Shown here piece by piece: positions 2,836-48,025 of a stretch of 64,000 nucleotides of DNA; position 1 is the first letter of the stretch, and each line of letters opens with the position of its first letter. Below the pieces are notes generated by a model that saw only the letters and a list, made by a program, of their open reading frames with translations, did not search any database and was not told where the DNA came from. Origin of the DNA: Ianthella basta (Eukaryota > Porifera > Demospongiae > Verongiida > Ianthellidae); contig OZ025879.1 of NCBI GenBank assembly GCA_964019415.1, positions 2,918,794 to 2,982,793 of the forward strand, given 5' to 3'. A program made the translations under genes and the position numbers.

Positions 2836-3113
2836 AGTGGTAGCGCACCCACTACTAAAGACCTGATGGATGTGTCTCGTTGTCTGACTACTGATTGGAA
2901 GATGTTTGTTTGTGCGATCGACGTCCCTGACATCAAGATTGACTCTATTATAGAGCGGTACAGAGATGACCCGTGGGAAACAGAAGTATCAGTGTCTGTG
3001 CTACTGGTTGAATGACAAAGGAGATCAAGCAAGCTTCAAGCAGTTAATTGATGCTGCAAAGAAGAGTGGACAAGTGAAGTTGGCCAAGGAGATCGAAACA
3101 ATCTCAACACAAG
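2836..3113 (+). pseudogene. Degenerate Death-fold exon, 5' part of gene 1 locus
   Basis: After the acceptor (cctgtag) the frame reads TTKDLMDVSRCL, then DWKMFVCAIDVPDIKIDSII, a helical Death-fold pattern. A 1-nt frameshift near 2965-2975 moves the rest (QCLCYWLNDKGDQASFKQL) into another frame. The exon ends at CAAG|gtgtgc in phase 1, matching the phase-1 entry of the exon at 4692. The same domain, also damaged, recurs at 22559-22860. Either the allele or assembly has a single-base error, or this exon is dead and gene 1 starts further downstream. Confidence 0.55.
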
Positions 3114-4691: not shown

Positions 4692-4730
4692 GTAGTCAGC
4701 ATGAAGCAAAAGAACCGTTACCAAAACCGG
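4692..4730 (+). CDS. Gene 1 linker exon (phase 1-1, 13 codons)
   Basis: A 39-nt exon lies between ctacag and the strong donor gtgagc. Entered in phase 1 it reads SQHEAKEPLPKP with no stop and leaves in phase 1. That fits both the upstream degenerate DD exon (phase 1 out) and the large exon at 6398 (phase 1 in). Low-complexity charged/proline linkers of this kind also separate domains elsewhere in the family. It is too short to prove without transcript data. Confidence 0.5.
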
Positions 4731-5673
4731 GTGAGCATCTGCACACAAATAGTACTATAAATGCAGTGAAACCTTGCTAAATTGGTAAATTGTGGTGCTT
4801 TAGTGGCTCTTTGTGGCTAGGGAGGTTGGTTGTTTTAGAGAGGTGCCTGCCTAACACAGTGACCATCTTAGATAGCTTCCACTGTAATACTTTCTTGTCC
4901 TTCATCCTATATTTTACTAGTGCAATTGCCTGCAAAGCTCTAAGGTTTACTTCTAGTCACATGCCCATTGTGATGTCGTCAGACTCCCGGACACATGCAC
5001 ACCTCAGGTGGGGAACGCCGACCATGCAAGAGACACAAACTTCACAAAGACACACTGTAACACCACGACCACGCGGCAGACGGTAACTCACTTCACTGTA
5101 TACAACGCAAGCACAAGACAGATCATCAACTGAGCATGCGCAGACACACATGGTATAAAACTAACCATGCATATTATAAGATGACAGAATACACGTGAAT
5201 CAAACGTGAGCAATAGCACGTGGCCAATACTACACACATGCTAAAACACAAATCATGCATATACAGTACACCCATCATTGCTTCACTAGTCTTATGACAC
5301 ATTAGAAATCACCATTCGCTGGCTAAGAGCAATCCACTCTAATGCACACACATGAGGAAACCAAACCCTGTAGGTACCAATTAATATATTAATAGCACAT
5401 TCGTGTATCAAGGAGGAATTGTACATTTGTTTGGCTTCTGTGAAAGGCTGATGGTTACAAGCTTTTCATGGCTATTGCCTAAGTGATGCACCCACACGGG
5501 GAAGGATGAGGTACCATTGTGCGAAATGATTTGTGTGCAACGGAACTGTATAGTTGCGCTCTAATCTAGAAAGGAATGCAATAGCCTATATAGCTTGTAA
5601 CCATTGCTGAAATTAGAAATTGTATTAGCAGAGTTGGCAAAGACTTCTCATTATAGAGTGATTGGAGCCAATG

Positions 5674-6239
5674 CAGTCAGGCGTCGCGTGACCCCTCCTC
5701 ACGGAAGGGTCAGGTTAAGTCTAATACATTGACTTGTCCACACAGAATGCAATTATGCGCTGTGGAATGTAATTTCTGCGCTACATTATGCCTCGCTTGT
5801 GGCCGCAAGTACGTGCGACGGCTCGCGACACTTACCTGATCTTTCATAATAGCCGTCATAAGAGCGACAGCAAGGACTATCAATGTCCCTTCGACCGGCA
5901 ACACCAGGCCGAACACTGCCGGCGGGCATGCGTAGCACAGGCTCTTGCCGAAACCAGTCAGCAAAACAGCAAAAACATCCCTCACAGAAACGATGCCAGA
6001 CACCACCTGAAGTTGCTCTGGCTGCATGGTAGACTAACCAAGGCGCTGGATGGCTTCCGTCACAGCGTATAACACTCTCTGCTCTATGCTCTGGTCTGTT
6101 GCCATTTGCGGACACGCGAGCAATAAATATTTCACACTTTTTCTGCAGTCTGATTGGGCACGCAACCATTGTGACATGCTGCACAAGTCAATGTATTAGA
6201 CTTAACCTTCCGCGAGGAGGGTCACGCGACGCCTGACTA
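5674..6239. mobile_element. TIR element carrying a captured helicase exon
   Basis: About 60-bp terminal inverted repeats (AGTCAGGCGTCGCGTGACCC... at the left, its complement at the right) are flanked by a perfect 9-bp duplication GAGCCAATG (5665-5673 and 6240-6248). The 9-bp duplication fits Mutator-like elements, but no transposase is present. The inner region is mostly a RecQ-type helicase exon on the minus strand, so it resembles a Pack-type gene-capturing element. It sits in an intron of gene 1. Confidence 0.85.
5836..6105 (-). pseudogene. Captured first exon of a RecQ-like DNA helicase
   Basis: From ATG at 6105 the minus strand reads MATDQSIEQRVLYAV, then an in-frame TAG about 24 codons in, then QPEQLQVVSGIVSVRDVF, a Walker A stretch (TGFGKSLCYA) and TAIMKDQ. 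It ends at a canonical donor CAG|GTAAGT at 5835-5831. The order is that of helicase motifs 0, I and Ia in RecQ proteins, which unwind DNA 3'-5'. The later motifs, including the DEAH box, are absent. The stop and the lone exon show it is a fragment carried by the surrounding TIR element. Confidence 0.8.
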
Positions 6240-6397
6240 GAGCCAATGTTGGTGAAATTGGATATGCAAATATTTAAAGATGTACAGCATATAATTCAAC
6301 GTATAACTGAAACCATCTGCCTATATACTAATGACATACACAAGTCCTAATAGTCAGTGATATGATTGACAATACTTCGTTGTCATCTGTCACCCAG

Positions 6398-7299
6398 TCC
6401 TGCAAAGAAAACGGCATAGGTCATCAAGCCTGAGTTCAGAGGAGTTTGAGCTGCAACAGTACCATGTTAGGAAACAACTTCAGGACTACATGGCGATGAA
6501 GATGGATCTTTTGAAACAAGATATCTCTGACCTTCGATCTGAATCTGATCCCGATGTCATTATCAAGCTGCTGTACAGTAATGCCTTTCATGTCATCTCG
6601 GAGCTGCTGAAACCCCACCTTGAAGAGGTGAAAAAAGCAGCTGATAGATATTGCCAACTTGACCTTCATCAAACAAAGCTGACAATGGGAGAGACTGCTT
6701 CTGCTACATCGATTGAAGGACTCCTGAACCAGATGTCTGTGACAGGAAGGTGGGATAATACACGTTTCCTGAGGAAGGCTGTGCATGCTATCCCACCATC
6801 TGCACCTGAGCGAGGAGTTGCAGAAGCCATTCTGTCACACTACAACCTTCACTTGGTTGTTCATGAACGTGCTACATTGTTGAAGGAGCGCCTAGCCAAG
6901 AGAAAGGAGTCTGAAAACCCCAAAATTGAAGATGGAGGACGACTAGTGCCACTGGAGTTGACAGTGTCAAAAGACTTCAGTGCCATCACATGTGAGGATT
7001 GCCACCATCTTCAAGTTTGTATTCTCAGCACAGTGTATGGTATTCCAGAAGAGAGCATTGTCTGCCGTAATGCGGAGGAGCGTTGCAGCACAACCATCAC
7101 CTTCCTCATCCCCAGCCAATACAGTGTTGCAATCTTGCAGCACAACACTCAGTTGGACACGGTGTGGGTTCTCTTAGAACTGGACGTGATTGAAGTGGCC
7201 ATCCCAGAATTGTTCTCATTCCAGCCGTCTGTGGATTACTTTGTGAAACTGCTGAGAGAAAGCAGGACCTTTACCGTGGACCTCATTAGAGTGACAAAG
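6398..7299 (+). CDS. Gene 1 exon: N-terminal alpha/beta region, unnamed
   Basis: This 902-nt exon enters in phase 1 after cacccag, ends at ACAAAG|gtacat in phase 0, and is open throughout. It encodes about 300 residues. First comes a charged helical part (EEFELQQYHVRKQLQDY) with several amphipathic helices up to about residue 150. A basic linker follows (LLKERLAKRKESENPK), then an alpha/beta part of about 110 residues with alternating hydrophobic strands (GIPEESIVCR, TITFLIPSQY, VWVLLELDVI). I do not recognise the family. It lies directly before the Death domains, where ZU5/UPA or similar modules sit in other DD proteins, but it does not resemble them by eye. Confidence 0.85.
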
Positions 7300-7427
7300 G
7301 TACATAGTCCTGCCTGTGTTTCCAGTGTTTTAATGGTACATTGTAATAAGTGTTTGCTGAAATAGTTAATATTCACATAGAGTGCTTATATTACTTATAC
7401 ATTATGCATTATCAATTCATACTGTAG

Positions 7428-7469
7428 GTACTGCCATACCAGATGTACGTTTTGCTGGATTCAGATGTG
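7428..7469 (+). CDS. Gene 1 small exon (14 codons, phase 0-0)
   Basis: The 42-nt exon between actgtag and gtatgt reads VLPYQMYVLLDSDV. It continues the phase-0 frame of the previous exon and hands over in phase 0 to the exon at 7616. It extends the strand-rich region of the N-terminal module. Confidence 0.75.
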
Positions 7470-7615
7470 GTATGTTGATTTACTTCAATACACTAATGTT
7501 TCCGAACTAAAACTAAACTTGGCTATACTGACAAAGTCCTACCTTACCGCTGAAGTATTAATGAAGAACTGTATGTGTGCACCTTTTATATGATAGTATT
7601 TTATAATGTTTGCAG

Positions 7616-7673
7616 GAGCCACTGACACTGTTTGGCCTAACAGACCCAAGAAAAGTGGCTCCCACATGGGATG
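7616..7673 (+). CDS. Gene 1 small exon (phase 0-1)
   Basis: The 58-nt exon between tttgcag and the strong donor gtaggt reads EPLTLFGLTDPRKVAPTWD and leaves one base, G. That base completes the first codon of the DD exon at 11578. No stop occurs in this frame. It closes the N-terminal module before a 3.9-kb intron. Confidence 0.75.
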
Positions 7674-7689
7674 GTAGGTATATGTGAGC

Positions 7690-7805
7690 TCACATGTCTC
7701 TGTTTACTGCCGAGCCAAAAGGCGAGGCAAGTAATCGTGACGCGTTGTCGTCCCCCGTTTGTATATATGTATGTATGTATATCCGTCGCAGTCAACCCGA
7801 GACAC
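7690..7805. repeat. Dispersed repeat, copy 1
   Basis: A GCCGAGCCAAAAGGCGAGGC palindrome-like head leads into AAGTAATCGTGACGCGTTGTC, a TATGTATG run and GCAGTCAACCCGAG. The same order recurs at 16903-17082. It is a short dispersed element in two introns of gene 1; the class is unknown. Confidence 0.7.
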
Positions 7806-8059
7806 CTAGATTGCACAATAGCCCAGTGTTCTCTGCAGGGCTCACGACAACAAAACGCTCTGCTTGGCCACCATCGGCCACGAAACAGCTCAACACTCCA
7901 CGTAATCACTGCACCCTGCGTTCAGATTGTTGGTAACGTCATCCATTGCTTCAGCGAGGGCTACACGCCTGTTGGCCATTCCGCCATATTGACTGACGTC
8001 ATTTGCCCCGCGTGGCCGGGACCACTTCCACTGTTCACTCGGGTAAAGCGATAACGCGC

Positions 8060-8490
8060 ACTGTGTTAGCACAGCACGGATGGGCTTCCCTGCGCAGCTC
8101 CAAATAGGTAGGTGTCGATTGCCCAGCTGCTATCCAGTGCTTCGTCTGGCTTGCTATTCCTTCTTTCTGTCAGCCAGTGAAAGCAGATTACAGTTCTACT
8201 GCCCAAAATGTACTTGCCCTGGCTGAGTTATGCTCATGAACTGTACTTTACTGAAATAGCTAGCTATATACATTCAAGCGAGGCTGGTTGCATTTTAATG
8301 TATGCCCTAGTTACTTATTGAAACCACTTAACTTGTGCTGATGCCTGGGTATTGGCTAGTCAGCTCACATAGCTAGACCGCTTTCTCCCCTCTATTACTA
8401 TATTATGACATTGTACAGGATGGGAGAAAGGGTCTAGTGAACAGCCTATACTGTTTTTCAGAGCATGAAGCTAATTACATAACCACTTCT
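8060..8490. other. Intron of gene 1, no recognised content
   Basis: Intronic sequence between the dispersed repeat and the LINE. No exon with compatible phase was seen. Confidence 0.5.
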
Positions 8491-9129
8491 TTTGACAACA
8501 TGTCATTGCCTAAAATTATCATTCCATCTTTTCCTTGGCTGCCCTCTTCCTCTTCTTTCTTCCATTTCAGCTTGGTATACTCTCTTTACTAGCCTGTCTG
8601 GACCCATCTCTTCCAATGCTTCTCTCCATCTCCTTTGGCTGTTTTTCAATTTCTCAAGCACCCCTTCATGTTGTAACTCCTCCCTAATCTCCACATTTCT
8701 CACCCTGTCAACCCTTCTCTACGATTCGCCTTAACACATGCATTTCTGTTCCCTGGACTGCCGACTCTTGTTGTTTGTTTAGTACCCACGTTTCACTTCC
8801 ATATACATCAGTTTGGGTACTACAATGGCATTATATACTCTCAACTTTGTCCTCCTACTCAACTCCTTCCTCTTCCACACCGGTTCATTCAACACCCCTA
8901 TCACTCATGCCGCCTTCCCAATCCTACTCCTGATTTCATCTTCCATCCTTCCATCTCCACTTATCATCACTCCCGAATACTTCACTAATTCCACTGACTC
9001 CAACTTCCTGTCCCCAACTTCCACACAGCAATGTCCTCTCTCCTTCCCCACCTTCATTACTTCCGTCTTCTCCCAATTCATTTTCATATCCCACTTTGTC
9101 AATGCCTCATCCAATTTTGTTAGATTCAC

Positions 9130-9693
9130 TCATAGGGACTCTTCACTGTCTGCCGCCAACACCATGTCATCCGCAAAAAGCAAAAAATCAATATTCTCCT
9201 TTCCCAATCTCACACCTTCCTTGAAGCCTTCACTTGCTTCCTTTACAATGAAGTCCGAGAACACATTGAAAAGCCATGGTGTACAACCCTGCGCATGCCT
9301 TACCCCTTGTTCCACTTCAAACCACTCCGAATGCTTTTCCCCCACCTTCACTCTCACCTCACACTCCACATACAGGGACTGTATTGCTCTCACAAGCCCC
9401 TCTCCCACCTGTGCCTGTTTTAATGCCTCCCACAGCTTCACCCTATTCACTCTATCATACGCTTTCTCCAGATCAATAAACGCCATAAATAACTCTCTCC
9501 TCTTCTCAATTCCCTTCTCCATTACTTGCCTCAAGGTGAACACTTGGTCTATACAACCTCTCATTGCTCTAAACCCGCCTTTCTCTTTCATCACTCTCCC
9601 CTCTGTGCTCGCTCTTAACCTAATGTTCAATACTTTACCAAACCATTTCCCGGCCACACTCAGCAGACTTATTCCTCTGTAGTTACTGCACAT
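9130..9693 (-). pseudogene. LINE reverse transcriptase core fragment
   Basis: This open segment of 187 codons holds the RT fingers and palm: SNYRGISLLSVAGK, then RAMRGCIDQVFTLRQV, FIDLEKAYDRV and FLLFADDMVLAA with the two catalytic aspartates. It reads on into the 8905-9129 segment (KLDEALTKWDMKMNWEKTEV, the RT thumb region) after a break. The enzyme would copy its own RNA at a nicked target. The disrupted frames make activity unlikely. Confidence 0.85.
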
Positions 9694-9896
9694 TAGCCTG
9701 CATCCCTTCTTGTAGATGGGAATGACAACTGCTCTCCTTCAATCCCTTGGAGCCTTACCAAACCTCATCACCATATTGAACACCATTTGCTTCCACTTCA
9801 TTAAGCTTATTCCTCCTGCCTTCAACAACTCCACTTGAATCTCACACACACCTGACTTTTCCCATTCTTCATCTTTCTCAGCTCTCTCACCATTTA

Positions 9897-10511
9897 CTAT
9901 AGCTCAATCTCCTCAGTCTCTTCCGTCATGCTTACACCCACCCTACAGTTCTCCACATCTTCTCTTGTCCCTGAATACAGTCCTGTGAAGTACCTCTTCC
10001 ATCTATCTACGACCAACTCCTCCTTGCCCACTATTATTTCATCCTCATCCTTCACTCTTCTAAATACCTCTTCTCTTCCCCTACCTCCCAAGCGTCTCAC
10101 CTTCGACCAGAACCGCTTCTGCCCACCCTGTGCATCTGCTTCCAACTCTCTACCAAGGTCAATCCACTCTTCATTCTTAGCTCTCCTCACTACCCGCTTG
10201 GCCTCCCTCTTTGCTTCTACATATCTCTGCCTAGATTCATTCGTTGTCACTTCCAACATCTTTCTGTATGCTATTTTCTCTGCAGCCACAGCTTTCTTCA
10301 CTTCCTCGTTCCACCATTTTGTCTTTTTTGCACCTCTCTTCTTCCTACTTACTCTACACACTTCACTAGCCACCTCTACCACTGCCCCCTTCAATTCGTC
10401 CCAAGCCATCTCCACTGAACTCCCCTGACAGTTCCTGAATTTCTCTGTGATCTTTCTTTCAAATTCTTTTCTACATTTCATTTTCCCTAATTTCCTTACA
10501 CTCCACTCCAT
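9897..10511 (-). pseudogene. LINE linker region between endonuclease and RT
   Basis: A 204-residue highly basic, helical segment (KKRGAKKTKWWNEEVKKAV, then QKRFWSKVRRLGGR) ends in two adjacent stops (TAG TAA) just before the RT. This composition and position are typical of the region between endonuclease and reverse transcriptase in LINE ORF2. Confidence 0.75.
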
Positions 10512-10640
10512 GTCTCCTCACTTCTGGCCCTTTGTTTCTTGACTCCCTACAATCTTTTTTCATCACCAATAGCACTAAATAATGATCACTACCAGTTTCT
10601 GCCCCTCTCATAACCTTGGTATCCTTAACTTTAATACTTC

Positions 10641-11577
10641 AACGAAATATGTATTAATATAATTGCTAAACAGGAAGCCTCTTCTGTGTACACCTTAGTA
10701 AGGGCTGAAATGGTATGTCTGTGGCTGTGTTTGTTTGGGTGTGGTGATGCTGGGCAATATGATGGTGTCATCGGTTGAAGCAATAAATGCGTTAACTTGT
10801 CTGCAAACCGTGTCCTTTCTATTCTGTGAGTATTCTGCTGGCTGGATAAGTGTGGCTTTGCATGGGGATGGAATTGAACTTATCACATTGCTGGACCGGT
10901 CACTCACCCCATCATAAAAGTAGAACAGAAATTCATTATAATATTGGAATAACGTGCACACCTAAGATCTTGTCCTTGTCAATATGTGTGCTGATGCATG
11001 ACTTATTTGCTGCTCATACCCCACCATACCTCTGCTAAAATGGCTGTGGGTGCTACCACACAGACAATGGAAAGTGGGTTAGGCCCATAACACCACATTT
11101 CTTTGACTTGCAAGCTCATGCAGCATATTAGATCTTGGACGACCAACCAGATTGCTAGCATGTAGTCTCATTACATGATGAGTTATTTGGCACTCTGAAA
11201 TTGTGGTACTGTCTTTATCTTGTCAGATTCTTGCCTCTTTCAAGTATATAGAGAGGCTCAGTGATCTGCCTCAAAATATAACTTTATGAAACGCCCACAG
11301 TTCCAGGGCCAGCCATTTTCCAAGTAATAAAAGAACTGATCGCATGACCATGCAGATGGCATGCTAGCAATTAATCTGATTACTCCTCAAGCTTCTGGTA
11401 TGGTTTTGTTTGTAGTGGGATGCAGCCATTATAGCTGGGTAGAAGACTAATCTGAAAGGGCATCTTCATATATGCAACAGAGGCTATATGCATGCGTGTG
11501 TACATCTGCAAGGAAGTGTTTGTGTCACTTGACTTCTACATCATGTTCATAATGGCCTATCATTACTTCCTCAACAG
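10641..11577. other. Remainder of gene 1 intron
   Basis: No exon, repeat or element recognised. The intron ends at cctcaacag, immediately before the first DD exon. Confidence 0.5.
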
Positions 11578-12061
11578 TTGGTGCATCCCTGCAGTCTTCA
11601 TTGGTTATCAGCGATCCTGAATATGTGGATGATCGACCCCCTGATTCATCCTTGCCAATATCACCTGTATCCAACCTGCCAGAATATGTGGAGCCTGGGT
11701 TATGTACAACCTCCACATACCAACGCAATGCAACAGACTCCACTGATGAGCCCCCAAAACATGAGGCATCTAATTTCTCTTCTGAAGTGAGCAAGGTAGA
11801 CCTTCAGCAAATTGCCCAGAATCTGCCAAATGACAAACGAATGGCGCTGGGAAGAGTTCTTGGCCTCTCTGAAACAGAACTGGATTCACGTTATCATGAT
11901 CCTGTCGAGCAGTGCTACCAGATGCTTCTGCTCTGGCAGCACTCACAGTTGGAAAAGGCTACATGGGAGACGCTGGAAGAAGCATTGCGTTCAGAGGAGG
12001 TGGGTTGCCCAAAACCCTGCCTTCATCTAGTAAGGAAATCTCAAGCCAGTGAAACCAAACC

Positions 12062-12063
<2 letters not shown>
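11578..12063 (+). CDS. Gene 1 exon: Death domain 1
   Basis: A 486-nt exon, phase 1 in and phase 1 out. The first half is an acidic/proline-rich linker (ISDPEYVDDRPPDSS). The second half is a Death domain: VDLQQIAQNLPNDKRMALGR, VLGLSETELD, CYQMLLLWQ, LEEALRSEEVG. Compared with DD2 and DD3 it lacks about six residues between helices 2 and 3 (LDSRYHDPVEQ instead of LDNIVANPKYNDPVEQ). Death domains mediate homotypic assembly of cytosolic signalling complexes, so this part should face the cytosol. The donor is the first GT of a long (GT)n tract. Confidence 0.88.
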
Positions 12064-12097
<34 letters not shown>

Positions 12098-12182
12098 ACG
12101 CGTGCGCATGTGTGTGTGTGTGTATGTGTGTGTATGTGTGTGTGTGTGTGTGCGCGCGCATGTGTGTGTGTGTGTGTACGAG
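12064..12182. repeat. (GT)n microsatellite starting at a splice donor
   Basis: About 120 nt of GT repeats with scattered CA, CG and AT interruptions begin directly at the donor of the DD1 exon (CCAG|gtgtgtg). Any length change leaves the donor intact but could shift donor choice by multiples of two bases. Confidence 0.95.
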
Positions 12183-12750
12183 CATGTACATGTGGGTCAA
12201 GACCATGCACATGCACATGCATAATTATATACGTATAAGTACCTATTGATAGAGTATCTGTCAAGTTCAATTGGTACTGGTCTAGTTAGGGTGCTTTGCT
12301 TTTTCTAAGATTTGAACAACAACTTCCCATTGGTGGTATCAAGGGTTGCTTTAAATACTTGAAATTTGTATATGAGCATTCTTTTAATATTCTTATATAA
12401 TTCTTATATTCTTATGTCTTAATTCTTAAATTATGTCTAAACTGCCATCGAGACATTTGGCGTTTTTGGCGACGAAGCTTTGGCCTTTTTCAGGGAAGTA
12501 GGATGTCACCTCTGATCCAAGATCCAAGAGCCACAGTCTTTTCATCAGATTTGCCAGCGTATCAGCATATGCATGCAGAGATTAAACTCTGTATCTATCA
12601 TGGGCACTAGTGCCGTGTAACTTTCCCTGTAGTTGTATATAATTTAGGTTTTAAGGATTGTAGAACTTCTGGTATAATTAAATTGTGTGTGTAAAAAACA
12701 AACAGAACGATTCTTATGATTATTGCCCTGTTACTTAATGTCTTCAATAG

Positions 12751-12806
12751 GGAGTGTGTCCAGAACTGAACCACGGGAATCAGCGTCAGGACACGCAGCG
12801 GATAAG
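12751..12806 (+). CDS. Gene 1 linker exon (phase 1-0)
   Basis: A 56-nt exon from cttcaatag to AAG|gtgagg reads SVSRTEPRESASGHAADK in the phase set by DD1. It hands over in phase 0 to the DD2 exon. With the DD2 exon it makes a 1-1 unit that appears to have been duplicated as linker + DD (compare 14737-16462). Confidence 0.75.
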
Positions 12807-13007
12807 GTGAGGTGCCCTTGCATGCACACATAATTTGGCATGTTCGTAGCTTACCCTGCCTGTGGAGTAGTTATTGTGTAGACATGTGCTAATGCAAGAC
12901 AATAGTGTGTATTTGTGTACTAGTCTTGTTCCTAACATATACAACACAACTGATGAGCCTGTTTTTGCAGTGTGTTTTGTTTACCATTGCTTTAACCCTT
13001 CTGCTAG

Positions 13008-13344
13008 GCATTGCCACTTTCACAAAGCAGGTTGACCGATGACGAGCATTGGTCAACAAGTCCAAAGCTGAGTGCTATGGATCTGAAACAGATAGCCCAC
13101 AATCTGCCAAATGACAAATGGAAGCCACTAGGAAGAGTTCTTGGCCTCTCTGAAGCAGACCTGGACAACATTGTAGCAAACCCAAAGTACAATGATCCTG
13201 TAGAGCAGCGCTACCAGATGCTTCTGCTCTGGCAACACTCAAAGGTTGAAGAAGCTACTTGGGAGCTGGATGAGGCATTGCGTTCAGAAGGGGTGGAACT
13301 TTCTCAACTAACAAGGAGGTATCAAACCAGTAAATCAAAATCAG
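13008..13344 (+). CDS. Gene 1 exon: Death domain 2
   Basis: A 337-nt exon, phase 0 in and phase 1 out, between tgctag and gtaagc. It encodes a complete Death domain: MDLKQIAHNLPNDKWKPLGR, VLGLSEADLDNIVANPKYND, RYQMLLLWQHSKVEEATWEL, RRYQTSKSKS. It is very close to DD3 at both protein and DNA level (the stretch around YNDPVEQRYQMLLLW is nearly identical), so the duplication is recent or the copies have been homogenised. Tandem DDs in one chain suggest a multivalent scaffold for DD adaptors. Confidence 0.9.
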
Positions 13345-14736
13345 GTAAGCATATATTGTGTACAACCCCATAAACACTGAACAGTAGTGATAGACAATAA
13401 ACTGAATGAAGCTCTACTGGAATCTCTGGCACATTATGACTGCACATGTGTGACAGGTGCTGGTCAAAGGCAGTAAGGAGAAATGAATACATCAAAGAAG
13501 CAATTGTAGATTGATAATCATGCATGTATGGAAATATCATGCAGGTCTGTCTAGTACATGTATGTGCTGATAAAATTGTCGGCACATGAATATGCTTTTT
13601 ATTGTGACTTGTGTAGGCGGATCAAAGGGATTTTGAGTACTTTATATTGCATAATCCTGCAGTGTGCTTTATGGCCGTTCTGTATGGAAGTTATAGAACG
13701 CTAGTGTGCCATAAAGTACGCTACCAAGAAACGCAAGCACTCAAACTCCATACTTATGCTTTTAAAGGTATCCTGTCCAGTGCGGCCTACTGAGATCGTG
13801 AATTTCGAAAGTTTGTCTTCATTTCTGCTGAAAGATGACCTCGCCGCTCTGTAAGTAAAAACGTAGCCTGCTACCCATCCTTAGTTTCTTAAAGGCGACA
13901 ACGAGTGTACTAACAACAGAGGGAGCGTGCTTTGCTAGTCCCTTTTGCGTCTCTTGAACTGGCAGTGTGAGTGGGCATCTTCACACTAGCTAGCTAGTTA
14001 GCCGAAGAAACAGCAACAACGCCAGCAAGTATTTGTTCTTCTGCAATAATAAAAAGAACAATGCACAGCTCAGACCTGTTCTATTGAGGCTCATTGAGAG
14101 TCTTCTCGCCAGCGAAGGAGCGTTTTCGCCCACTGCTGCTACAGCTATTCGCTTCTCTCTTCCTTCCATCTGACCAGAATGTAAGGCAAGTTTGAATGAA
14201 GTCAACCAATGAGATTAGAGATGACGCAATAAAATCAGCCAAATGTGACTTGCAGATGACACAATCGGAAAATGGAAGAGTGCAGGTCAACCGTCCACCC
14301 GCACATTCACAATAAACCACTTAAAGTTGGTTAGGAGTCCCTTATGAAATTTATTGCACTCGAGGTGAGGTCTTGTTGCCTGATATAGCACCCGGCTTTG
14401 CCTCATGCTGTATCAGCAACTTGACCTCACCTCTTGTGCCATAAATCCCATAATAGACTCCCAACCAACTTTACGTAATACATAATTATATTTGTATATC
14501 ATTCTGTAGTCACATGCTGTAGCAGCAAAATGACAGCACCAACAACAATATTAACTAAGTTCACATTATGGAATAAGAATTATTATTCACACTATTTTCA
14601 GTGAGAAAGATAAATAGTGGACATAAATCTCATTGTTTCAACTGTAAATTGCATTGCAAACAATATTTTGTGTCTAATTTTAGAGTGAATGTAATCTGCA
14701 TCATGGCTTACATGTGAAATTCGTACATGCCTATAG
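13345..14736. other. Gene 1 intron between DD2 and its next linker
   Basis: No exon or element recognised. Mixed AT-rich intronic sequence; a short ORF pair on the minus strand near 13990-14320 has no motif. Confidence 0.5.
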
Positions 14737-14849
14737 TGTTGAAGGAGAGTGTGTCCTTGAGTTCTTATATGAAGGACAGCCTAAGTCTTTCATGCAGTAC
14801 TGAACCACTGGAAGCCCCCTTGGCAGCACCAGAAGATGCAGCGAATAAG
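14737..14849 (+). CDS. Gene 1 linker exon (phase 1-0), extended
   Basis: A 113-nt exon from cctatag to AAG|gtgggg reads VLKESVSLSSYMKD, SLSLSCSTEPLEAP and LAAPEDAANK without a stop. Its start (ESVS) and end (TEP...AA.K) match the 56-nt linker at 12751. The middle has about 45 extra bases, so the linker was either lengthened here or shortened in the other copy. The phase fits DD2 (out 1) and DD3 (in 0). Confidence 0.7.
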
Positions 14850-15689
14850 GTGGGGTGCTCTCGCATGCATACTAAATTTGCATATTACCCGCCCATAGAG
14901 TAGCTGGTAATCATGAGTTGTGTAGACATGTGAACGTGAAAAACAGTAGTGTAGACTATAATCTTGTTCCTACCATAGCTATAGCGCAACAGTTCCTAAC
15001 ATAGCTATAGCACAGTTTTGTTAAATGAAACTAAGAGTGTGTCATCTACTTATAATGGAACTAGGCCAATTTTTTTGTTCGCACTAATCTCCGAAACTGA
15101 CCGAAGGATTCTCAGCAAACATGGTCCAAATGTCAAAGTGCTATCCGGAGGGTGTCTTCAGTGGGTTGTTCTGTGAAAGCTTACGAAATGCAGGTTTTGC
15201 GCTGACTAGCCATGAATTACTATAGGACGCCATCTTTGTTTAAAATTTATGGAGGAAAGCAAGCTAGATTACGGAATTTGCAGTGAATGTCTTTGTTATG
15301 CAACTTCTCCTTGGAAGGATGGCGTGACAGCATTTTTTCTATCTTATACTGTATCTTGAAGTAGGAAGCCGTGGATGGCATAAGCTCTACCATATATAGC
15401 GGAAGAGTTTTCTTGCAAGATACAAAGCGGCCCAATGGCTAGAAGATGGGCCTCAAGTTATCCGGGTTATTGATTATGCAATTATATGATGATGTCATCA
15501 CAACTTTCTGCAACACATTTTGCAACCACAGCAGTGCAAATAGGCCAAACACTGGACTATTCAAGAAATCTAGACATTCAAGGATGCTAAGGGTTCTCAA
15601 GAACCGTCAACAACTTTCACCACTTGAAGACCAATGCTCAACTGATGATCATCTGGAGTTAGCTCAAGGGAAGATAGAACCATGCAGGA

Positions 15690-15835
15690 ACCAGCTCAAA
15701 TGAACAACCAGGAGCCAGTTAAAAGGAAGTCAGCTTAAAGGAACAACCACGACTCGGCTCAAGGGAACAACCAGGATTCAGCTCAAAAGAATAACCAGGA
15801 GTTAGCTCAAAGAAACAACCAGGAATCAGCTGCAT
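15690..15835. repeat. Minisatellite, about 28-nt unit
   Basis: Five to six diverged copies of a unit like AACAACCAGGANTCAGCTCA follow one another, between two gene 1 exons. Units vary at one to several positions. Confidence 0.8.
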
Positions 15836-15960
15836 GTTACTCTATAACTGCAACATACAACTTCCTTAACTTTCACTTAGTAGCCATTACTTGGTAGCCA
15901 GCATTGATATTGTTTTGCGTCAGAAGCACTGGCATAGGAAGTGCCTGCATGGAGTGCCAG

Positions 15961-15997
15961 AGCAGAGAAGTGTGCTATAAAGGCACACTTCTCTGCT
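15961..15997. repeat. Perfect 15-bp hairpin, 7-nt loop
   Basis: AGCAGAGAAGTGTGC (15961-15975) is exactly complementary to 15983-15997, with loop TATAAAG. It lies in the intron before DD3. The stem is too short for a normal animal miRNA precursor. Confidence 0.8.
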
Positions 15998-16134
15998 AGT
16001 ATGATTAAAAAGCGATGTAGGTTAAATGATAGTGCATGAATGCATATTATCACATAATAGTGGCATATTACATTGCTGTGTGCCTTCTTGGTGTGGTTTG
16101 TTTATTGTTGTTTTAATGCTTCCATATGCATTAG

Positions 16135-16462
16135 GCGTGGCTACAACCGTTAAGCACTAGGATGTTAAACCCAGAGCTGAATGAGAGGGATCTACTGCGA
16201 ATTGCCAACAATCTGCCACCTGACAAGTGGAAGCCACTGGGAAGAGTTCTTGGTCTGTGTGAAAGAGACCTGGACAACATTGCAGCAAACCCAAAGTACA
16301 ATGATCCTGTAGAGCAGCGCTACCAGATGCTTCTGCTCTGGCAACAGTCACAGGTTGAAGAGGCTACACGGGAGAAGCTGGAAGAAGCGTTGCGTTCAGA
16401 GGAGGTGGGGCTCCCTCAACTAGCAAGGAGATATCGAACCAGTGAAACGAAACCAGCTGCAG
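16135..16462 (+). CDS. Gene 1 exon: Death domain 3
   Basis: A 328-nt exon, phase 0 in and phase 1 out, between gcattag and gtgtgc. It encodes a full Death domain: RDLLRIANNLPPDKWKPLGR, VLGLCERDLDNIAANPKYND, QRYQMLLLWQQSQVEEATRE, LARRYRTSETKP. It is the last DD before the membrane part; its donor joins in phase 1 to the 9TM exon at 17787. The DD array would sit at the cytosolic N-terminal side of the first membrane segment. Confidence 0.9.
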
Positions 16463-16902
16463 GTGTGCACACACAATGATTCCTCTGTATTTTATGTGGT
16501 GCTTTGAAATAGATCCCTAACATATTTTCACCGAATCCCTACATCTGGCCAATCCCAATGTGCTTTCTGGATTGATTGGGGGGAGGGGGGCAATGTGCTT
16601 AATTAGTCACAGACATCATCTACAGATGTTGCCAGATTTAGGGATTGTTGAAATGTTTCTTTCAAAACATGAGCTTGCACAGTCATTTCCATGTAGCTGA
16701 CTAATTAATGCTGAGCGACTCTGACTGCTTCTTCCTCCTTGTACATTATCTACCAGTTTTCTAGGTGGTGCATGCCTGAAGGCACCGTGTTATACCCTAC
16801 ATCCCTTTGTATTATGGTGATATCCTTATAAAGTGACTTGTGGGTGGATGGAAGGAAATTTGAGTACCACATTCATTGCATACTCGTACAGCGTGCTTTG
16901 TT

Positions 16903-17082
16903 GCCGAGCCGAAAGGCGAGGCAAGTAATCGTGATGCGTTGTCGTACCCCTACGGTTTTTTCGTCAGGTGGTTTTGCCATACCTTGCAGGTACACACTGC
17001 ACATCCCTACATCAGCCCTTGTTTTTGGAGGAAACACTTTTATATATGTATATACGTATATCCGTCCCAGTCAACCCGAGCA
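16903..17082. repeat. Dispersed repeat, copy 2
   Basis: GCCGAGCCGAAAGGCGAGGC, then AAGTAATCGTGATGCGTTGTC, an insertion of about 80 nt, a TATATGTATATACG run and CCAGTCAACCCGAG. It matches the element at 7690-7805 in order and sequence. No coding capacity. Confidence 0.7.
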
Positions 17083-17243
17083 CAGTCCTATTGCTATCCT
17101 TTGATATTTGGCAAGAAACCAATTATCATTCACCCACGCTTTCCTTAATAATTTCCTAATAATCACTTCTGTTACAGTGTGTTGTAATAGTAGTGATTAT
17201 TTGAATTATTTGGATTGTGGGATTATTTATTTTTTGATTATTC

Positions 17244-17297
17244 TGTGCTTATTAATCTGTTACATCCCAAGAGGGATGTAACAGATTAATAGGCACA
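17244..17297. repeat. 25-bp near-perfect hairpin, 4-nt loop
   Basis: Arm 17244-17268 pairs with 17273-17297 across loop AAGA. All pairs are canonical except one position that can form G-T. The inner arm reads ATTAATCTGTTACATCCC. It is in the last intron of gene 1, 490 nt before the 9TM exon. Confidence 0.85.
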
Positions 17298-17786
17298 AGC
17301 CACGAGGGCTCGAAGCACCAAGCCCAACATGGTTCATGTCCAATCATCTGAGAGTCTCTGTATATACTGTTCAGACTGTTTATCTTTTTTGGAAATATAC
17401 AGCATTTTCCAGCACCGGGAACAGTTGTTCCCACACACATGCATGTCAACGTGCAGCCAATTTTGAATAGCTTACCATGATCCATGCAGTTAATAGACAG
17501 TGCTTTGCACTAAAATGGATACACAGTTTCAAGCTCACTACTTTTTCATAAATTATATATACTGCATTTTTCCATGATAATAGCTACACAGTTTGAAGAT
17601 GTAAGATTAAGATACACTGGTGAGATACTCCACACAGCCATAGTTTACAGGCTAAAGCCAGTTATTGTGCAATACATTTCTTTTCTCAGGCATACACATA
17701 CAGATCAGAAGGTGACCATTTAATAATTATATGAATCAATTGGGATATAATCACCCTTTTATACATCTCTGTATTTTCCTTGGCAG

Positions 17787-19351
17787 ACCTGAATGACAGT
17801 GACCCTGATATACCCTCACCAGCAGCAGCTGCTTCCAGCCAGCTAGAAGTAGATATGGAGCATGACTCACAACCAATTGTTGCACGTAGCATTCCTACCA
17901 GTTCCTCCCCCAATGTTCCCAACCCCAATGAAGAAGCTGACCAGCCACTGGTGCTAAATCCCACACACTTTCTTTTATACAGGAATCTATATATTGCAGG
18001 CTGGTGGCCCAACCTCATCCGCAATTCTGTTTTGGTCACACTCTATATCTTTCTCGTCATCCAGCTGTTTGCCACTGCCAAGATTGCATACTTGCTTCAT
18101 GACAGGCCATCCTATCCCGCCACCTGCAACCACAGTGGACTTATTTTTGTGGTCACTGTGGTGTTGCGCTGCATCACTCGATTTGTCTTCCCCCTGTTAC
18201 TGACCCTCCAGTTTCACTACGTCTTGTGCAGGCTGAATCTTGCCGTTGATAGGGGATGGAAATTTCTACAAGAAATTCAGAAAGATGAAAACTTTAATGT
18301 TTTGCAGAAGGTTGCCCTCATTCTCATTAACATTCAGATTGACACAACACATCCGGTGAATAAGCAGAAGAAGAAAATTCTTCAAAGGGTAAGGGAAGAC
18401 TTTTCAGGCGACCTTCATGCCATGTGCCTTTCTTCCATTTTGGAGGGTTTCTTGCTAACATTTGCACTGATTGGACTTGGAGCAGTTCACTATGAAGAAG
18501 AAACGTATCCCAACAAAACTGGTCTCTTTATGCTGAAATGTTTGGACATCATTTCTTGTCTGGTTCTAAATATCTTCTGCAGCTTGATGCTTGCCTTCTG
18601 CTTTTATGAGCTGAAGCTTAAGTACACCATCACTGCTGTATTAGAGGCAGAGAATCTAGTCACCGCAGACTCTGTTGTGAATGTGACACTGAGAGGTTCT
18701 TTGAAAATAGAGGCTGAAAAGATTGTGAATCGCTTGGTACTCAACTGGTGTGCAGCAGACATATTCATGCACCTTGGCACAGGAGTGTTCTCTATCCTCC
18801 TAATTATCAGTGCAGTCACTGGCCTACCACTGAGCTGTGGTGTGTGGGTCCATCCAGATCAGTTGGAAACTGATACTCAGATCCAATGGCTCTATTTCGT
18901 CATGGTTACTGTATTATCCCACCTTCTTGCCACCAGCATTTTCATCATCCCTCTAATGCGACCTGTCGGTATCACCCTTGAGATCCTGGGAGTTCTATTC
19001 ATCTACTACATGTATCAGGAACAAGCAGCATATTCACAGTACCTTCAGATATTGTATGCCATCTTTCCAGCTTGCTATTGCTTCTGGTACCATTTTGCAA
19101 TTGTTGCATACGAATTCCTGTTCACGTATCGCTGTAAGACCCAAAAGCATCTCCATTTCAAGAAGATGGTGTATTCAATCAGCCTTATACTATTACTAGT
19201 TGTGGCACTACTTGTTGCAGTGTATACTGAGTACACAAACTTAGCAGTTGACAAGGACATTGACCATGCGGAGATGCTATCAGGAAATATCAATCGGGGC
19301 TCACTTGCTCATGCTTTCCAAAGTGACAGAGGTAGCTGCCAGGAGAAGTGA
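17787..19351 (+). CDS. Gene 1 terminal exon: nine-TM membrane domain
   Basis: A 1,565-nt exon entered in phase 1 (cttggcag|AC), ending at TGA. After an acidic/proline linker of about 75 residues come hydrophobic segments at roughly residues 82-103, 119-145, 215-235, 247-275, 327-350, 380-400, 406-424 (weak), 430-455 and 473-492. Shared family marks are GLPLSCG after segment 5, FYELKLKY after segment 4 and LYAIFPACYCFWYH in segment 8. The segment 2-3 loop is basic, placing it and the Death domains in the cytosol. It is the most diverged of the five copies and lacks the C-terminal coiled tail. I do not recognise the family; receptor or transporter are both possible. Confidence 0.88.
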
Positions 19352-22558: not shown

Positions 22559-22860
22559 AGTGGAAAGTAATGAAGAGTTTCTCCACATCCCCACCAACAA
22601 GGAGCTGACTTATATTTCCCATCTTCTGCCCCCAGCCCTGATTGGAAGATATTCATTCGTGAGATAGGTGTCCCTGAAAATAAGATATGTGCTATAATAG
22701 AGCAACATAAAAATGAGCATTTGGAACAGATTTACCAGTGCCTCCATAGTTGGATGAATGACAAAAGATACAAAGCAAGCTATAAGCATTTAATTGATGG
22801 TGCAACATAGAGAAAAGCAAATAAGCTGGCCAGTGACATCAAAACTATCACAAAAGGAGG
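22559..22860 (+). pseudogene. Damaged Death-fold exon
   Basis: The exon follows cactgcag and ends GGAG|gtaagc in phase 1. It reads TNKELTYISHLLPP, then after a 1-nt frame change DWKIFIREIGVPENKICAII, QIYQCLHSWMNDK and YKHLIDGAT, then an in-frame TAG and RKANKLASDIKTI. It is the paralogue of the exon at 2836-3113 (DWKMFVCAIDVPDIKI). One frameshift plus one stop make it non-functional as read. Confidence 0.7.
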
Positions 22861-25303: not shown

Positions 25304-25810
25304 GTGAGAATCGATCATTTAGGGCGAAGGAAGTCCGTATAGGTCTATAGCTAGGTATCTATCCTAGCTCCTTCTATTGCATTATCTCATGCACATGTGT
25401 GCTGGTCTCCCCTCCTCCTCCTCCCCCCCCCCCCCTTCTTCCACCACCACTTGTTCACCTGTATCTACACCCCTGTGGCTACAAGACTCTGGTTTCACAA
25501 TTTCCTTATTAGTCCACAGCTATCACTGGTCTGCATGAAAACAGCTGTAGCTACTGGTGTATTCTAACGGACCACACCACCATTTAGTTAGCTACCTGTG
25601 TGTGACTTTGAATGTCTGGTTCATCTTATAAAGTGGTGGCCAGCTAGTTACTGCAATTTGAGCCCATGCATTTGACAGTGATTGTGGGCATGCATGCAAG
25701 TACAACTGCTGACACAGCCTATAGGACGAAGTGATGTTGTATAGATTAGAATGGTACTCTGAAAGCTCTATAGCCCATTCTGTGTTTTGTATTTGTGCTC
25801 CACTTTGCAG

Positions 25811-27660
25811 GGCATCCAGTTGAATGTAGTGAAAATGAGAATGACCAAGCACGCCCAATACCTGTTTCACCAAGATCTGTTCACCGCCAATTACCAGCCA
25901 CAGTCCCAAGCGTCAACCATGAACATGAGCAGATATCAGAGGCGGTAGAGGAATCTGAGCAGGACAACAGGCTTCAGCAGAACACTGACGGGTGTAAGCA
26001 AAACAGGCACCTGGATGAATCACATGCTAGGCAGTCTTTGCCAAGCTTGTCATCAGACCAGGACGCCAGTGAGGCTGAACGACATCAAGAGATCCATCCT
26101 AGCTGTGCCCCACAGCACCATTCAGCAGTGACAGCTAGGCAGGATTTAGATCAGCAGACAGAACAGAAAAAGCCCATACTTCATCTCTGGAACTTTAGAG
26201 CATATACATGGGTAAGAAAATTTAGCTATTATACTACTCTTGTGGTAGTAGCCCTCACTACCCTAATGTGTGCGCAGATGTTCCTTGTCAGCGTGGACTG
26301 CTATGAGAGTTACAACATCCGCTCAGAGCATTCCCAGTGTTCCTGTTCCTTCCCCTATCCATGGCTTGTCACTGCTGCACTGCGTATTACCTCAAGGTTT
26401 GCATTTCCATTACTGCTGAGCATTGTGTTCTGGTACCAAGTGGTGTACAGGAATGAAACAGCAGGTAAAGATCAGCCACGTACTAAAAGAACGTTTGCAA
26501 CTGAAATACAGAAGGAACACAATCACAAGATTGTCAGAGACATTATTCAGAAGTTTTGGGACCTCTCCGTGAAACCATCTGATAATTGGCTAGAACTCCT
26601 CAGAAGGATTCGAGACAAGATGGATGCTGATCTGACTTGGATGTGCAGTACGTCTCTTGTTCAATCATTTATCCTTGTTATTTCCTTGTTCGCTTTCCAT
26701 CTTGTTGAAGCAAATGGCACTAACAGGTCTGGCTCCTCTTTTTGGCTTGGGGTTGCCGATATCCTATCTTTTGGAATAGTGACAGCTGTCTCTGGTGTCA
26801 TGCTGTCCTTTTACTTTCTTGAGTCTAAGATCAAGCATTATATTAGAGCAGTCCATACCCTATCAAGCACAAGTCGCACACTTCGTGATAAAGCAAAGGA
26901 GGCAGAGCACTGCATCACTAATCGGTGGTATCCACTTGAGATTGGAATGCGCTTTGCGTCCGTAATAATCCCTGCCATTCTTCTCATGAACTGGGCCTCT
27001 GATATTCCTCTGAGCTGTGGGTTTTCTGTGAGTATAGAAGCCATTGAGGAGCGGTCTGCAGCCGCTTGCTGGATGGGTTTCATTGTTGTGGTCATTGTTG
27101 GGCAAGTGATGGTAACTAGCCCTTTCAATCCCATTTATATCCACTGCACTGGTCTCGGTATGGAGATAGTTTTCCTCTTCATATTCTACCTGACCTTTCC
27201 TACTAAGGAATGGATGCAACTGACTCACGTTCTGTATGCCATTGTTCCACTCAGCTACTTGATCTGGTACCACGTTGCATCCATTTGTAGGCAGTGGCCG
27301 GCAATCAACCGGACAAAAGAAGGGAACCCCACCTATGTCTCACGGCTTGCTTCACGAACAGGACTACTCATTCTCATACTAGCCACACTATTTGCTTCAC
27401 TAAACGTGGAGTATGGCCACCTCCATCCGAGTGCCATTGACAAGTACAAGTACATGTACAATGCAGACATCATGGCACAACCAGCTGCCTTCAGCCAAGC
27501 CTTAGCCTCAGCAAGTATCAGCAGCATGAAGCATGAAAGGGCTCTTTTGAAGCAACTGGCCGAAAAATATGATGCTATGGTGTACTTTGTTGAAGAGAAA
27601 CTAAAGAACGAGTTAGATGGTGAAGTTTCATCTCTAAAACGAAAACATGTCAACACCTGA
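25811..27660 (+). CDS. Gene 2 terminal exon: nine-TM membrane protein
   Basis: A 1,850-nt exon entered in phase 1 (ctttgcag|GG), ending TGA; with its first exon about 625 residues. The N-terminal 130 residues are polar, Gln/His/Ser-rich and likely disordered. The membrane part follows KPILHLWNF: segment 1 (TTLVVVALTTLMCAQMFLVS), a Cys-rich loop CYESYNIRSEHSQCSC, segment 2, a basic cytosolic loop, segments 3-4 ending FYFLESKIK, segment 5 with DIPLSCG, then segments 6-9. A tail (KHERALLKQLAEKYDAMVYF) looks like a short coiled coil. No frame damage. The ligand or substrate is unknown; nine segments with cytosolic N-terminus predict an extracellular tail. Confidence 0.88.
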
Positions 27661-32437: not shown

Positions 32438-34298
32438 GGTTTTCAAGTACATGTACTGATGATGAGCATACAGCTCCCAGTACATTGGCATCACCAAGAG
32501 CTGTTCACCCGTTTACAGCTGTCAGTGCCTTGGGTACACCAGAGCATGAGCAGTTAAGTAGACCTGAGGAAGAGTCAGGACATGGTGAGCAGGACAATAA
32601 ACATCGGTACACTAGTCGACATGAACCAAGGAGGAGCTGGAATGAATTGCATTCTAGGCAGCCCTTGCCAAGTGTGTCGTCCGACCTGGATGCCCATGAT
32701 GTCGACCAACATGACAGAACTCGCCTAGAATCTAATAGCTTATACCATGCTCCACAGTGGCGTTCACCACAGGATTCAGCTGAATGGCAGGATACAGATC
32801 AGCAGCAAGAAAAACCCATACTTTATCTCTGGAACTTTCGGCATATACTTATGTACGAAAATTTAGCTTTAGCACTACACTCGTGGCGGTTGCCCTCACT
32901 GCCCTAATGGGTATGCAGATCTTCCTCGTCAGCGTGGACTGCTATGAGAGTTACAACATCCGCTCAGAGCATTCCCAGTGCTCCTGTTCCTTTCCCTATC
33001 CATGGCTTGTCACTGCTGCACTGCGTATTGCCTCAAGGTTCGCATTTCCTTTATTGCTGAGCATTGTCTTCTGGCGCCATGTGGTGTGCAGTAAAGCAGT
33101 AGCAGTTGAAAACCAGCCAACTAGTAAAAGGACGTTTGCTATTGAAATAGAGAAGAAACACAATTACAAAGTTGTTAGAGAACTAGTTGAGAAATTTTGG
33201 ATTATCTCTGTGAAACCAACAGACACTGGGCTAAAGCTTCTCCAAAGGGTTCGGGATAAGATGAATACTGAGCTTACATGGATGTGTATTACATCTCTTC
33301 TCCAGTCAGCTCTCCTTATTGTTACATTATTTGCTTTCAATCTTGTTGAAGCAAATGATACTAACATGTCTGGTTCCTCTTATTGGCTTGGGGTTGCAGA
33401 TATCCTATCTTTTGGAATAGTAACAGCTGTCTCTGGTGTCATGCTGTCCTTTTACTTTCTTGAGTCTAAGATCAAGCGTTATGTTAGAACGGTCCATACC
33501 CTACCAAGCACAAGTCGCACACTTCGTGATAAAGCAAAGGAGGCAGAGCACTGTATCACTAATCGGTGGTATCCACTTGAGATTGGAATGCGCTTTGCAT
33601 CTGTAGTAATCCCCACAATTCTCCTTATGGGCTGGGCCTCTGATATTCCTCTGAGCTGTGGGTTTTCTGTGAGTATAGAAGCCATTGAGGAGCGGTCTGC
33701 AGCCGCTTGCTGGATGGGTTTCATTGTTGTGGTCATTGTTGGGCAAGGAATGGTGACCATCCCCTTCAAACCGGTATTTATCCGCTTCACTGGACTCAGT
33801 ATGGAGATAGCCATCCTTTCTATATTCTACCTTACCTTTCCTACTACGGAGTGGATGCAACTGAGTCACGTTCTGTATGCCATTGTTCCACTCAGCTACT
33901 TGATCTGGTACCACATTGCATCCATTCGCCGGCAGTGGCTGGCAATAAACAGGACAAAAGAAGGGAACCCCACCTATGTATCAAGATTGGCTTCTCGGAT
34001 AGGACTACTCATCCTTATCATAGCCACACTTGCAGCTTCAATTCGTGTGGAGTACAGCCACCTCCATCCAAGTGCCCTTGGCAAGTACAGCAATACAGAC
34101 ATGAATGCACAGCTGACTGCATCGATTGTCAACACAGGCATCGGCAGCATGAAGCATGCACAGGCTCACCACGAGAAGGCTCTTTTGCAACAACTGGCAC
34201 AAAAATACAATGCCATGCTGTACTTTGTTGAAGAGAAAGTGGAGAGCAACAAAGATGTTTGCTTTTCCTCAAAAGGACAAAAACGTTGTAATGTCTGA
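32438..34298 (+). pseudogene. Gene 3 terminal exon: nine-TM protein, frameshifted
   Basis: The exon starts in phase 1 (attgcag|GG) and reads a polar N-terminal region (SPRAVHPFTAVSALGTPEHE and onward) up to KPILYLWNF near 32838. There one base is missing relative to gene 2. The remaining segments (SAYTYVRKFSFSTTLVAV onward, CYESYNIRSEHSQCSC, FYFLESKIKRYVR, DIPLSCG, all nine TM segments and the coiled tail ALLQQLAQKYNAMLYF) continue in the +1 frame to a stop at 34298. Otherwise intact, so it is a very young pseudogene or carries a sequencing error. A 116-nt block is identical to gene 2. Confidence 0.85.
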
Positions 34299-47689: not shown

Positions 47690-48025
47690 GTGGTGCCACA
47701 GCCTCGAGCAGCTGGATGTTTGAATCCCAGGCATCAACAAGCCCAATGAGGAGTGAGATCCTTTTGCTTCAAATTGCCAAAGATCTGCCAAATGAGAAAT
47801 GGAAACCATTGGGAAGAGCTCTTGGCCTCTCTAAAACAGACTTGGACAGCATTGTAGCAGACCCACAGCTCCACAGTCTTACAGAGCTGCAATGCTACCA
47901 GATGCTTCTACTCTGGCACTCGCAAGCAGAGCCTATGTGGGAGAAGCTGGCAGAAGCTTTGCACTCAGAGGAGGTGGAGTGCCCTCATCTCGCAAGAAGA
48001 TATCTAACCAGTGAAGTGAAACCAG
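47690..48025 (+). CDS. Gene 5 exon: Death domain
   Basis: A 336-nt exon, phase 1 in (cccactag|GT) and phase 1 out (CCAG|gtgtgg). It begins GGATASSSWMFESQ and then encodes a Death domain: SEILLLQIAKDLPNEKWKPL, ALGLSKTDLDSIVADPQL, QCYQMLLLWHSQAEPMWEKL, LARRYLTSEVKP. It is close to gene 1 DD1-DD3; its entry phase matches DD1. The upstream partner is likely the exon at 41760 and the downstream partner the linker at 49530. The reading frame is undamaged. Confidence 0.85.

Follow-up and report, generated by a model that had tools for sequence, protein, structure and literature searches.

A clustered gene family of the sponge Ianthella basta that joins Death domains to a predicted nine-pass membrane domain

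We analyzed a 64,000-nucleotide stretch of an Ianthella basta contig, here called the window; the contig itself is referred to as C12. A gene in this window belongs to a clustered family that combines Death domains with a polytopic membrane domain. That these two parts constitute one gene family under selection is well supported, and judging from the sequences, they very probably reside in one protein. The window gene would carry three Death domains, probably an N-terminal module with a TRADD-N-like part, and a nine-pass anchor. The best overall explanation, to which we assign an even chance, is a family of nine-pass proteins with cytosolic N-terminal Death domains that has a sensing and recruiting role.

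The earlier note had read ten exons in one phase-consistent frame, and this reading held. An AG precedes all ten exons, a GT is found at all nine donors, and the splice phases chain without a stop until the TGA at 19351 (Table 1). The chained protein comprises 1,307 residues, excluding the partial first codon. Exon 1 is entered in phase 1 and has no start codon in the chained frame (its ATG is in another frame); therefore, the 5' end of the gene is missing. Where exon 8 begins is ambiguous, as the AGs before 14737, 14815, and 14827 each lead to phase 1. A search of the whole window against Rfam at gathering scores returned no match.

Table 1. Exons of the gene model and related features in the window (positions are those of the window).
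Feature	Positions	Strand	Content and remarks
Exon 1	4692..4730	+	39 bases, symmetric phase 1-1; without homology support
Exon 2	6398..7299	+	Helical region and RRM-like, TRADD-N-like part (about 6937-7239)
Exon 3	7428..7469	+	Phase 0-0; similar exon downstream of the C5 paralogue
Exon 4	7616..7673	+	Phase 0-1; turns the module's phase 0 into phase 1 of the Death-domain exons
Exon 5	11578..12063	+	Linker and DD1 (11799-11993)
Exon 6	12751..12806	+	Linker, phase 1-0
Exon 7	13008..13344	+	DD2 (13077-13292)
Exon 8	14737..14849	+	Linker, phase 1-0
Exon 9	16135..16462	+	DD3 (16189-16398)
Exon 10	17787..19351	+	Linker and nine-TM domain (peaks 18029-19222); ends with a shortened tail and the stop
Death-domain-like exon	2863..3106	+	Frameshifted over two frames; upstream of the gene model
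Death-domain exon	22631..22798	+	Precedes the TM exon at 25774; genome match has one TAG
Further Death-domain exon	47764..48006	+	Pfam Death 29.5 bits
Paralogous TM exon (type B)	25774..27660	+	
Paralogous TM exon (type B)	32784..34298	+	
Paralogous TM exon (type B)	37356..39290	+	
Paralogous TM exon (type B)	61103..62833	+	

All three Death domains that had been named from the sequence exceed the curated cut-off of the Pfam Death family (PF00531, 22.6 bits), with scores of 35.0 for DD1, 42.7 for DD2, and 50.3 for DD3. Two of the three are clearly exon duplicates; over a length of 109 codons, the DD3 exon shares 96.9% DNA identity with the Death domain at C12:3038977. The two parts of the frameshifted exon upstream of the gene model scored 24.0 bits (2863-2979) and 48.6 bits (2978-3106) against a home-made HMM. 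By reading, this exon has a donor-like end in phase 1 that would suit exon 1 or exon 2, and it could be an upstream part of the same gene. By eye, it resembles the Death domain of L003. For the TM exon at 61103, the closest upstream Death-domain exon that we found is the one at 47764..48006, 13.6 kb away.

The TM exon used as query had 15 matches in the genome, including itself and one fragment, all of them within a single 0.42-Mb stretch of C12. At ten of these 15 loci, a Pfam Death match lies on the same strand within 8 kb upstream, compared to an expectation of about 0.003 per TM exon, and at an eleventh locus, the home-made HMM detected an upstream Death domain. No Death domain was found within 8 kb of the other four with Pfam, or with the home-made HMM over part of the upstream stretches. 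A phase-1 acceptor-like AG, amid AGs of other phases, is present close to where the open frame begins at 14 of the 15 loci. In another assembly, the 706-aa sequence P0012 contains both a Death domain (30.7 bits) and the TM part. Several entries of its source set (P0001, P0004, P0008, etc.) include translated intron tails, and P0012 is therefore probably one uninterrupted frame. P0013 and P0014, whose TM part is close to that of P0012, had no Pfam Death match. The dN/dS values were between 0.23 and 0.46 in all eight TM pairs, indicating purifying selection. The recurrent pairing, the single sequence of P0012, and the selection on the TM exons bear out the linkage of Death domains and membrane segments that the earlier note had proposed.

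Aligned with its closest paralogue, the window copy shows a gap of 14 bases near the 3' end, and it lacks the Cys-rich tail that is present in all 13 aligned relatives. Because this tail is lost and a frameshifted Death domain lies upstream, the window copy may be degrading. The gap, the frameshifted domain, and the weakness of exons 1 and 8 would also fit a decaying copy or a gene-model artefact, in which exons of neighboring genes chain in phase by chance. We consider this very unlikely, however: exons 2-10 are open throughout, the TM exon of the window is under purifying selection in comparison to three paralogues (dN/dS 0.23-0.33), and the pairing of Death domain and TM exon recurs at other loci.

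The alpha/beta module in exon 2 had been left unnamed. The module is not an orphan, and its fusion to the rest of the gene is less secure than the link between the Death domains and the TM part. The module had 115 matches across its own genome and matched 190 proteins at E<=0.001. In the structure model (pLDDT 78.6), a helical region is combined with an RRM-like fold, and TRADD-N is among many tied structural matches obtained with VIA-align. Foldseek returned no match for this model at E<=0.001. In sequence searches, the Pfam scan of the exon and 41 relatives gave no usable family, with no TRADD family among the 42, and single-sequence and profile searches of the PDB sequences had no match. 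Judging by the number of matches and the modeled fold, the module represents a large, expanded family, part of which is RRM-like and possibly resembles TRADD-N. The TRADD-N superfamily has an RRM-like beta-alpha-beta-beta-alpha-beta fold and, in the sections of PMC8195603 available to us, a tiny residue followed by Ser in the beta2-beta3 turn. Ser 230 of the module is invariant in 42 of 42 sequences but is preceded by H, Q, R, C, D, Y, or K, none of them tiny. No match to the Pfam TRADD-N profile (PF13820) was obtained, but this profile was uninformative, being silent across the genome and in every control as well.

The module probably belongs to the same protein as the Death domains and the membrane domain; the fusion is likely rather than certain because the module occurs only once on this contig. 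For the same reason (one of 115 matches on C12), the usual family member consists of Death domain and TM part and is without the alpha/beta module. The locus might instead be divided between an alpha/beta gene that comprises exons 1-4 and a Death-domain/nine-TM gene made up of exons 5-10 and an unseen first exon. This would agree with the presence of a paired Death domain at ten or eleven of the 15 TM loci while the module is on C12 here only, with the stop at 7685-7687 that is met when exon 4 is read through, and with the 3.9-kb intron, containing a reverse-transcriptase fragment, that parts exons 4 and 5. We nevertheless regard two genes as rather unlikely. Exon 5 offers no in-frame ATG ahead of DD1, and its phase-1 acceptor fits exon 4. 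P0004, the fourth match of the TM domain (67%), and P0017, the third match of the alpha/beta module (69%), have longest contigs of equal size (2,146,581). Furthermore, in the C5 paralogue, the module and an exon-3-like exon (phase 0) precede same-strand candidate exons of other modules: a coiled-coil-like frame, whose acceptor is in phase 0, as well as exons for WW and ankyrin. We infer these to be one gene.

The similar exon downstream of the C5 paralogue, which encodes ILPYQMYCLIDPDTK, matches exon 3 at 60% over 15 residues, and no convincing homologue of exon 4 was found in the 25 kb of that paralogue. Among 20 loci searched with short flanks for the exon-3/4 pattern, both exons were found at the window's own locus only. 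The exon-3-like exon of the C5 paralogue, the one paralogue followed further, lies outside those short flanks. Among proteins of about 490-1,560 residues, none scored for the alpha/beta module; this result was not counted against the fusion because most entries of the database appear to be single-exon frames.

The nine membrane segments of the earlier note reappear as nine hydrophobic peaks in the last exon when hydropathy is averaged over 14 sequences. Peaks 6 and 7 abut, and with a stricter threshold, the peaks of the single sequence fuse into eight stretches, of which one spans 44 residues; nine is therefore the best count from hydropathy and not a proven one. The mean number of K+R is 10.2, 6.3, and 3.9 in loops 2-3, 4-5, and 8-9, respectively, compared to 0.8-1.6 in the loops of the other side. 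Because of these charges, the topology is predicted to be N-in and C-out, with cytosolic Death domains. The domain is conserved and contains invariant charged residues. Scanned against Pfam, the TM exon and its relatives gave no usable family, the sole convincing match in the TM alignment being the Death domain of P0012; the PDB sequences gave no match to single sequences or profiles. The structure model is poor (pLDDT 47.6) and had no Foldseek match at E<=0.001. The membrane domain is a candidate for a new protein family. The lipocone, as treated in the part of PMC12419801 available to us, was considered for it and then dropped.

Of the 30 best VIA rows obtained with the low-confidence TM model, seven were solved structures of insect gustatory or odorant receptors, as weak neighbors. 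These receptors are channels with seven TMs, a cytosolic N-terminus, long intracellular and short extracellular loops, and ligand-gated cation conductance. The membrane domain resembles them in its predicted N-in orientation and in its loop lengths; it differs in having nine hydropathy peaks. There is no sequence match between the two, and the structural likeness comes from a model too poor to decide the relationship. The Death domains could be the input and the nine-TM domain the effector, with assembly opening a channel or pore and thereby killing or depolarizing the cell. The N-terminal, predicted cytosolic Death domains, the large, conserved membrane part with its invariant charges, and the receptor-like neighbors would all accommodate such an effector, which we judge unlikely. 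Less probable still is a multipass chemoreceptor-like channel fused to Death domains outside insects, which would couple chemical detection to the nucleation of cell death or inflammation with no bridging adaptor.

A receptor or scaffold, with the membrane domain as input, is the mechanism that we tentatively prefer, at somewhat below even confidence. The membrane domain would sense an extracellular, lipid, or membrane cue and draw the cytosolic Death domains together. The Death-domain array would then recruit cytosolic Death-domain partners into an oligomeric signaling complex, and the TRADD-N-like part, by analogy with TRADD, might recruit a second class of partners. If true, this clustered and selected family adds a class of receptors (or effectors) to early animal immunity and provides a gene set with which to study the cues that a sponge cell perceives ahead of its commitment to death or inflammation.

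Death-domain signaling usually proceeds through soluble adaptors or single-pass receptors. The combination of a Death-domain array with a multipass membrane protein, which the earlier note had called unfamiliar, is likewise undescribed in the literature we searched on sponge Death domains, multi-pass proteins, gustatory receptors, and TRADD, mostly without full texts. TNFR1, Fas, p75NTR, and UNC5 share with the window gene a cytosolic Death domain (predicted here) on a membrane protein; however, they have one TM and a C-terminal Death domain, whereas here nine hydrophobic peaks follow N-terminal Death domains. The vertebrate adaptor TRADD is soluble and has one Death domain and no membrane part, compared to three Death domains and the nine-TM domain of the window gene. 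An RRM-like N-terminal domain precedes the Death domain in TRADD (PMC8195603, sections available to us), and the gene model similarly places a module with a modeled RRM-like part ahead of its Death domains.

The sections of Kaur et al. 2021 (PMC8195603) available to us describe 357 Amphimedon proteins with TRADD-N, one to three Death-like domains, and a variable C-terminus. In these proteins, the Death-like domains precede TRADD-N, whereas the three Death domains of the window gene follow the module. Section 10 of that paper names no polytopic membrane C-terminus for Amphimedon, in contrast to the nine-TM end found here. Ankyrin repeats are among the commonest C-terminal partners in the Amphimedon set (PMC8195603), and ankyrin is seemingly also a partner in the C5 paralogue.

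The ten exons of the window gene could be joined as the earlier note had claimed, with an AG before each exon, a GT at all nine donors and a TGA at 19351; exons 2 to 10 start in phases 1, 0, 0, 1, 1, 0, 1, 0 and 1. Its three Death domains were confirmed by Pfam in exons 5, 7 and 9 (DD1 to DD3; 35.0, 42.7 and 50.3 bits, cut-off 22.6), and no Pfam family matched exons 2 and 10, which encode the alpha/beta module and the TM domain. The DD2 and DD3 exons are 86% identical in DNA, which marks them as a tandem duplication. Exon 1 contains no start codon in the chained frame; therefore, the 5' end of the model is open. On reading the sequence, three candidate phase-1 acceptors were seen for exon 8.

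We searched the genome (209 Mb, 96 contigs) with exon 10 as query. There were 15 matches, including the query itself and one fragment, and all lie within 2.90-3.32 Mb of the window's contig. When a divergent member served as query, 12 rows fell in this cluster and three, riddled with stops, at a single site on contig C15. This site (C15:4746173-4747056) is a decayed copy with several stops, the sole copy that either TM query found outside the window's contig. Five TM exons are inside the window, one being exon 10; the other four (see the table) share 24-27% protein identity with it. The dN/dS values were 0.23-0.46 in all eight pairs compared, and the membrane domain may be a new family. The window copy terminates early and is without the Cys-rich tail of its relatives; at 19320-19380 it shows a 14-base gap relative to the closest paralogue. 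By eye, a charged, coiled-coil-like tail replaces the Cys-rich tail in three of the four other window paralogues, the exception being the one at 61103.

Features of the window outside the ten-exon coding model
Feature	Position	Strand	Remark
Element bounded by 16-nt terminal inverted repeats (94% complementary)	2226-2778		Immediately 5' of the frameshifted Death-domain exon
Element with 20-nt and 29-nt inverted repeats	5675-6238		Inside intron 1
Retroelement fragment	~8503-10517	minus	Inside intron 4
Recently duplicated paralogous TM exon	25774-27660		80-84% DNA identity among the four
DDE_1 transposase fragment	30981-31421	minus	47.2 bits; between TM paralogues
Recently duplicated paralogous TM exon	32784-34298		As above
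Recently duplicated paralogous TM exon	37356-39290		As above
Recently duplicated paralogous TM exon	61103-62833		As above

Of the 15 TM loci, 10 (window gene counted) have a Pfam Death domain no more than 8 kb upstream in the same orientation. An even spread of the 150 scored Death-domain hits across both strands would give about 0.003 per locus; the loci, being paralogues, are not independent trials. One of the ten paired Death domains contains a stop codon, and one pair lies ~270 kb away from the remainder. With a home-made HMM, applied to the window and 15 fetched loci, an eleventh TM exon was also found to be preceded by a Death domain, at a distance of 0.9 kb. For the TM loci at 2951676, 2956443, 2980364 and 3000708, none was found within 8 kb upstream, either with Pfam or with this HMM in the window and fetched loci. 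A phase-1 acceptor-like AG is close to the start of the open frame in 14 of the 15 TM loci (AGs of other phases were also listed), and the cluster Death-domain exons that we read (three in the window, and those of fetched loci L002 and L003) end in phase-1 donors. At two Death-domain loci on contig C18, the first listed donor is phase 0. That a Death domain and this membrane domain are joined in one gene family, under selection, is strongly supported.

Both domains occur in protein P0012 (706 aa, from another assembly): its Death domain scores 30.7 bits, and its TM domain covers 82% of the query. No Pfam Death match was obtained for its relatives P0013 and P0014; the N-terminal part of P0013 aligns partly with that of P0012. 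Compared with the genome or the splice site, P0001, P0004 and P0008 start with apparent translated intron tails, and from residue 2 onward P0008 exactly matches a frame of fetched locus L044. Because several entries start in this way, the protein set apparently consists of uninterrupted frames, in which case P0012 would need no splicing.

The earlier note had also claimed fusion to the alpha/beta module; here the Death-domain/TM pairing recurs, whereas the module is only likely to be fused to the Death-domain array. In favor of fusion, exon 3 is phase 0-0 and has a counterpart behind a module paralogue, exon 4 starts in phase 0 and ends in phase 1, the phase that the Death-domain exons use, and the DD1 exon has no in-frame ATG ahead of its Death domain. 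Against it, the genome-wide search found no second alpha/beta match on the window's contig, read-through of exon 4 runs straight into a stop, and the 3.9-kb intron 4 contains a reverse-transcriptase fragment (PF00078, 70.3 bits at 9130-9738). Also in favor, P0004 (TM, 67%) and P0017 (module, 69%) have longest contigs of equal length and are presumably from one contig; this would show linkage within 2.1 Mb, not fusion. The module itself is very largely expanded, with 115 matches genome-wide; the expansion was noted at 4.0-7.0 Mb of contig C5 and on C3, and downstream of one copy, in the same orientation, lie coiled-coil-like, WW and ankyrin exons.

The Death domains are predicted to be cytosolic. 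They would be clustered when a cue acts on the membrane domain, and the clustered domains would draw in soluble Death-domain partners; a further class of partner may be recruited by the TRADD-N-like part of the module. Conversely, assembly of the Death domains might gate a membrane effector. In the searched parts of the open literature, including PMC8195603, PMC12909245, PMC13012725 and PMC12419801, nothing was found that describes a polytopic Death-domain protein like this one; an example could be listed in the supplementary architecture table of Kaur et al.

At 2863-3106 of the window, a Death-domain exon is split by a frameshift; by eye it resembles the Death domain of L003, which precedes a TM exon of the paralogous class called type B. 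The element in intron 1 encodes, on its minus strand, a fragment whose DEAD-helicase match (22.0 bits) falls short of the cut-off of 26; this may be a captured piece.
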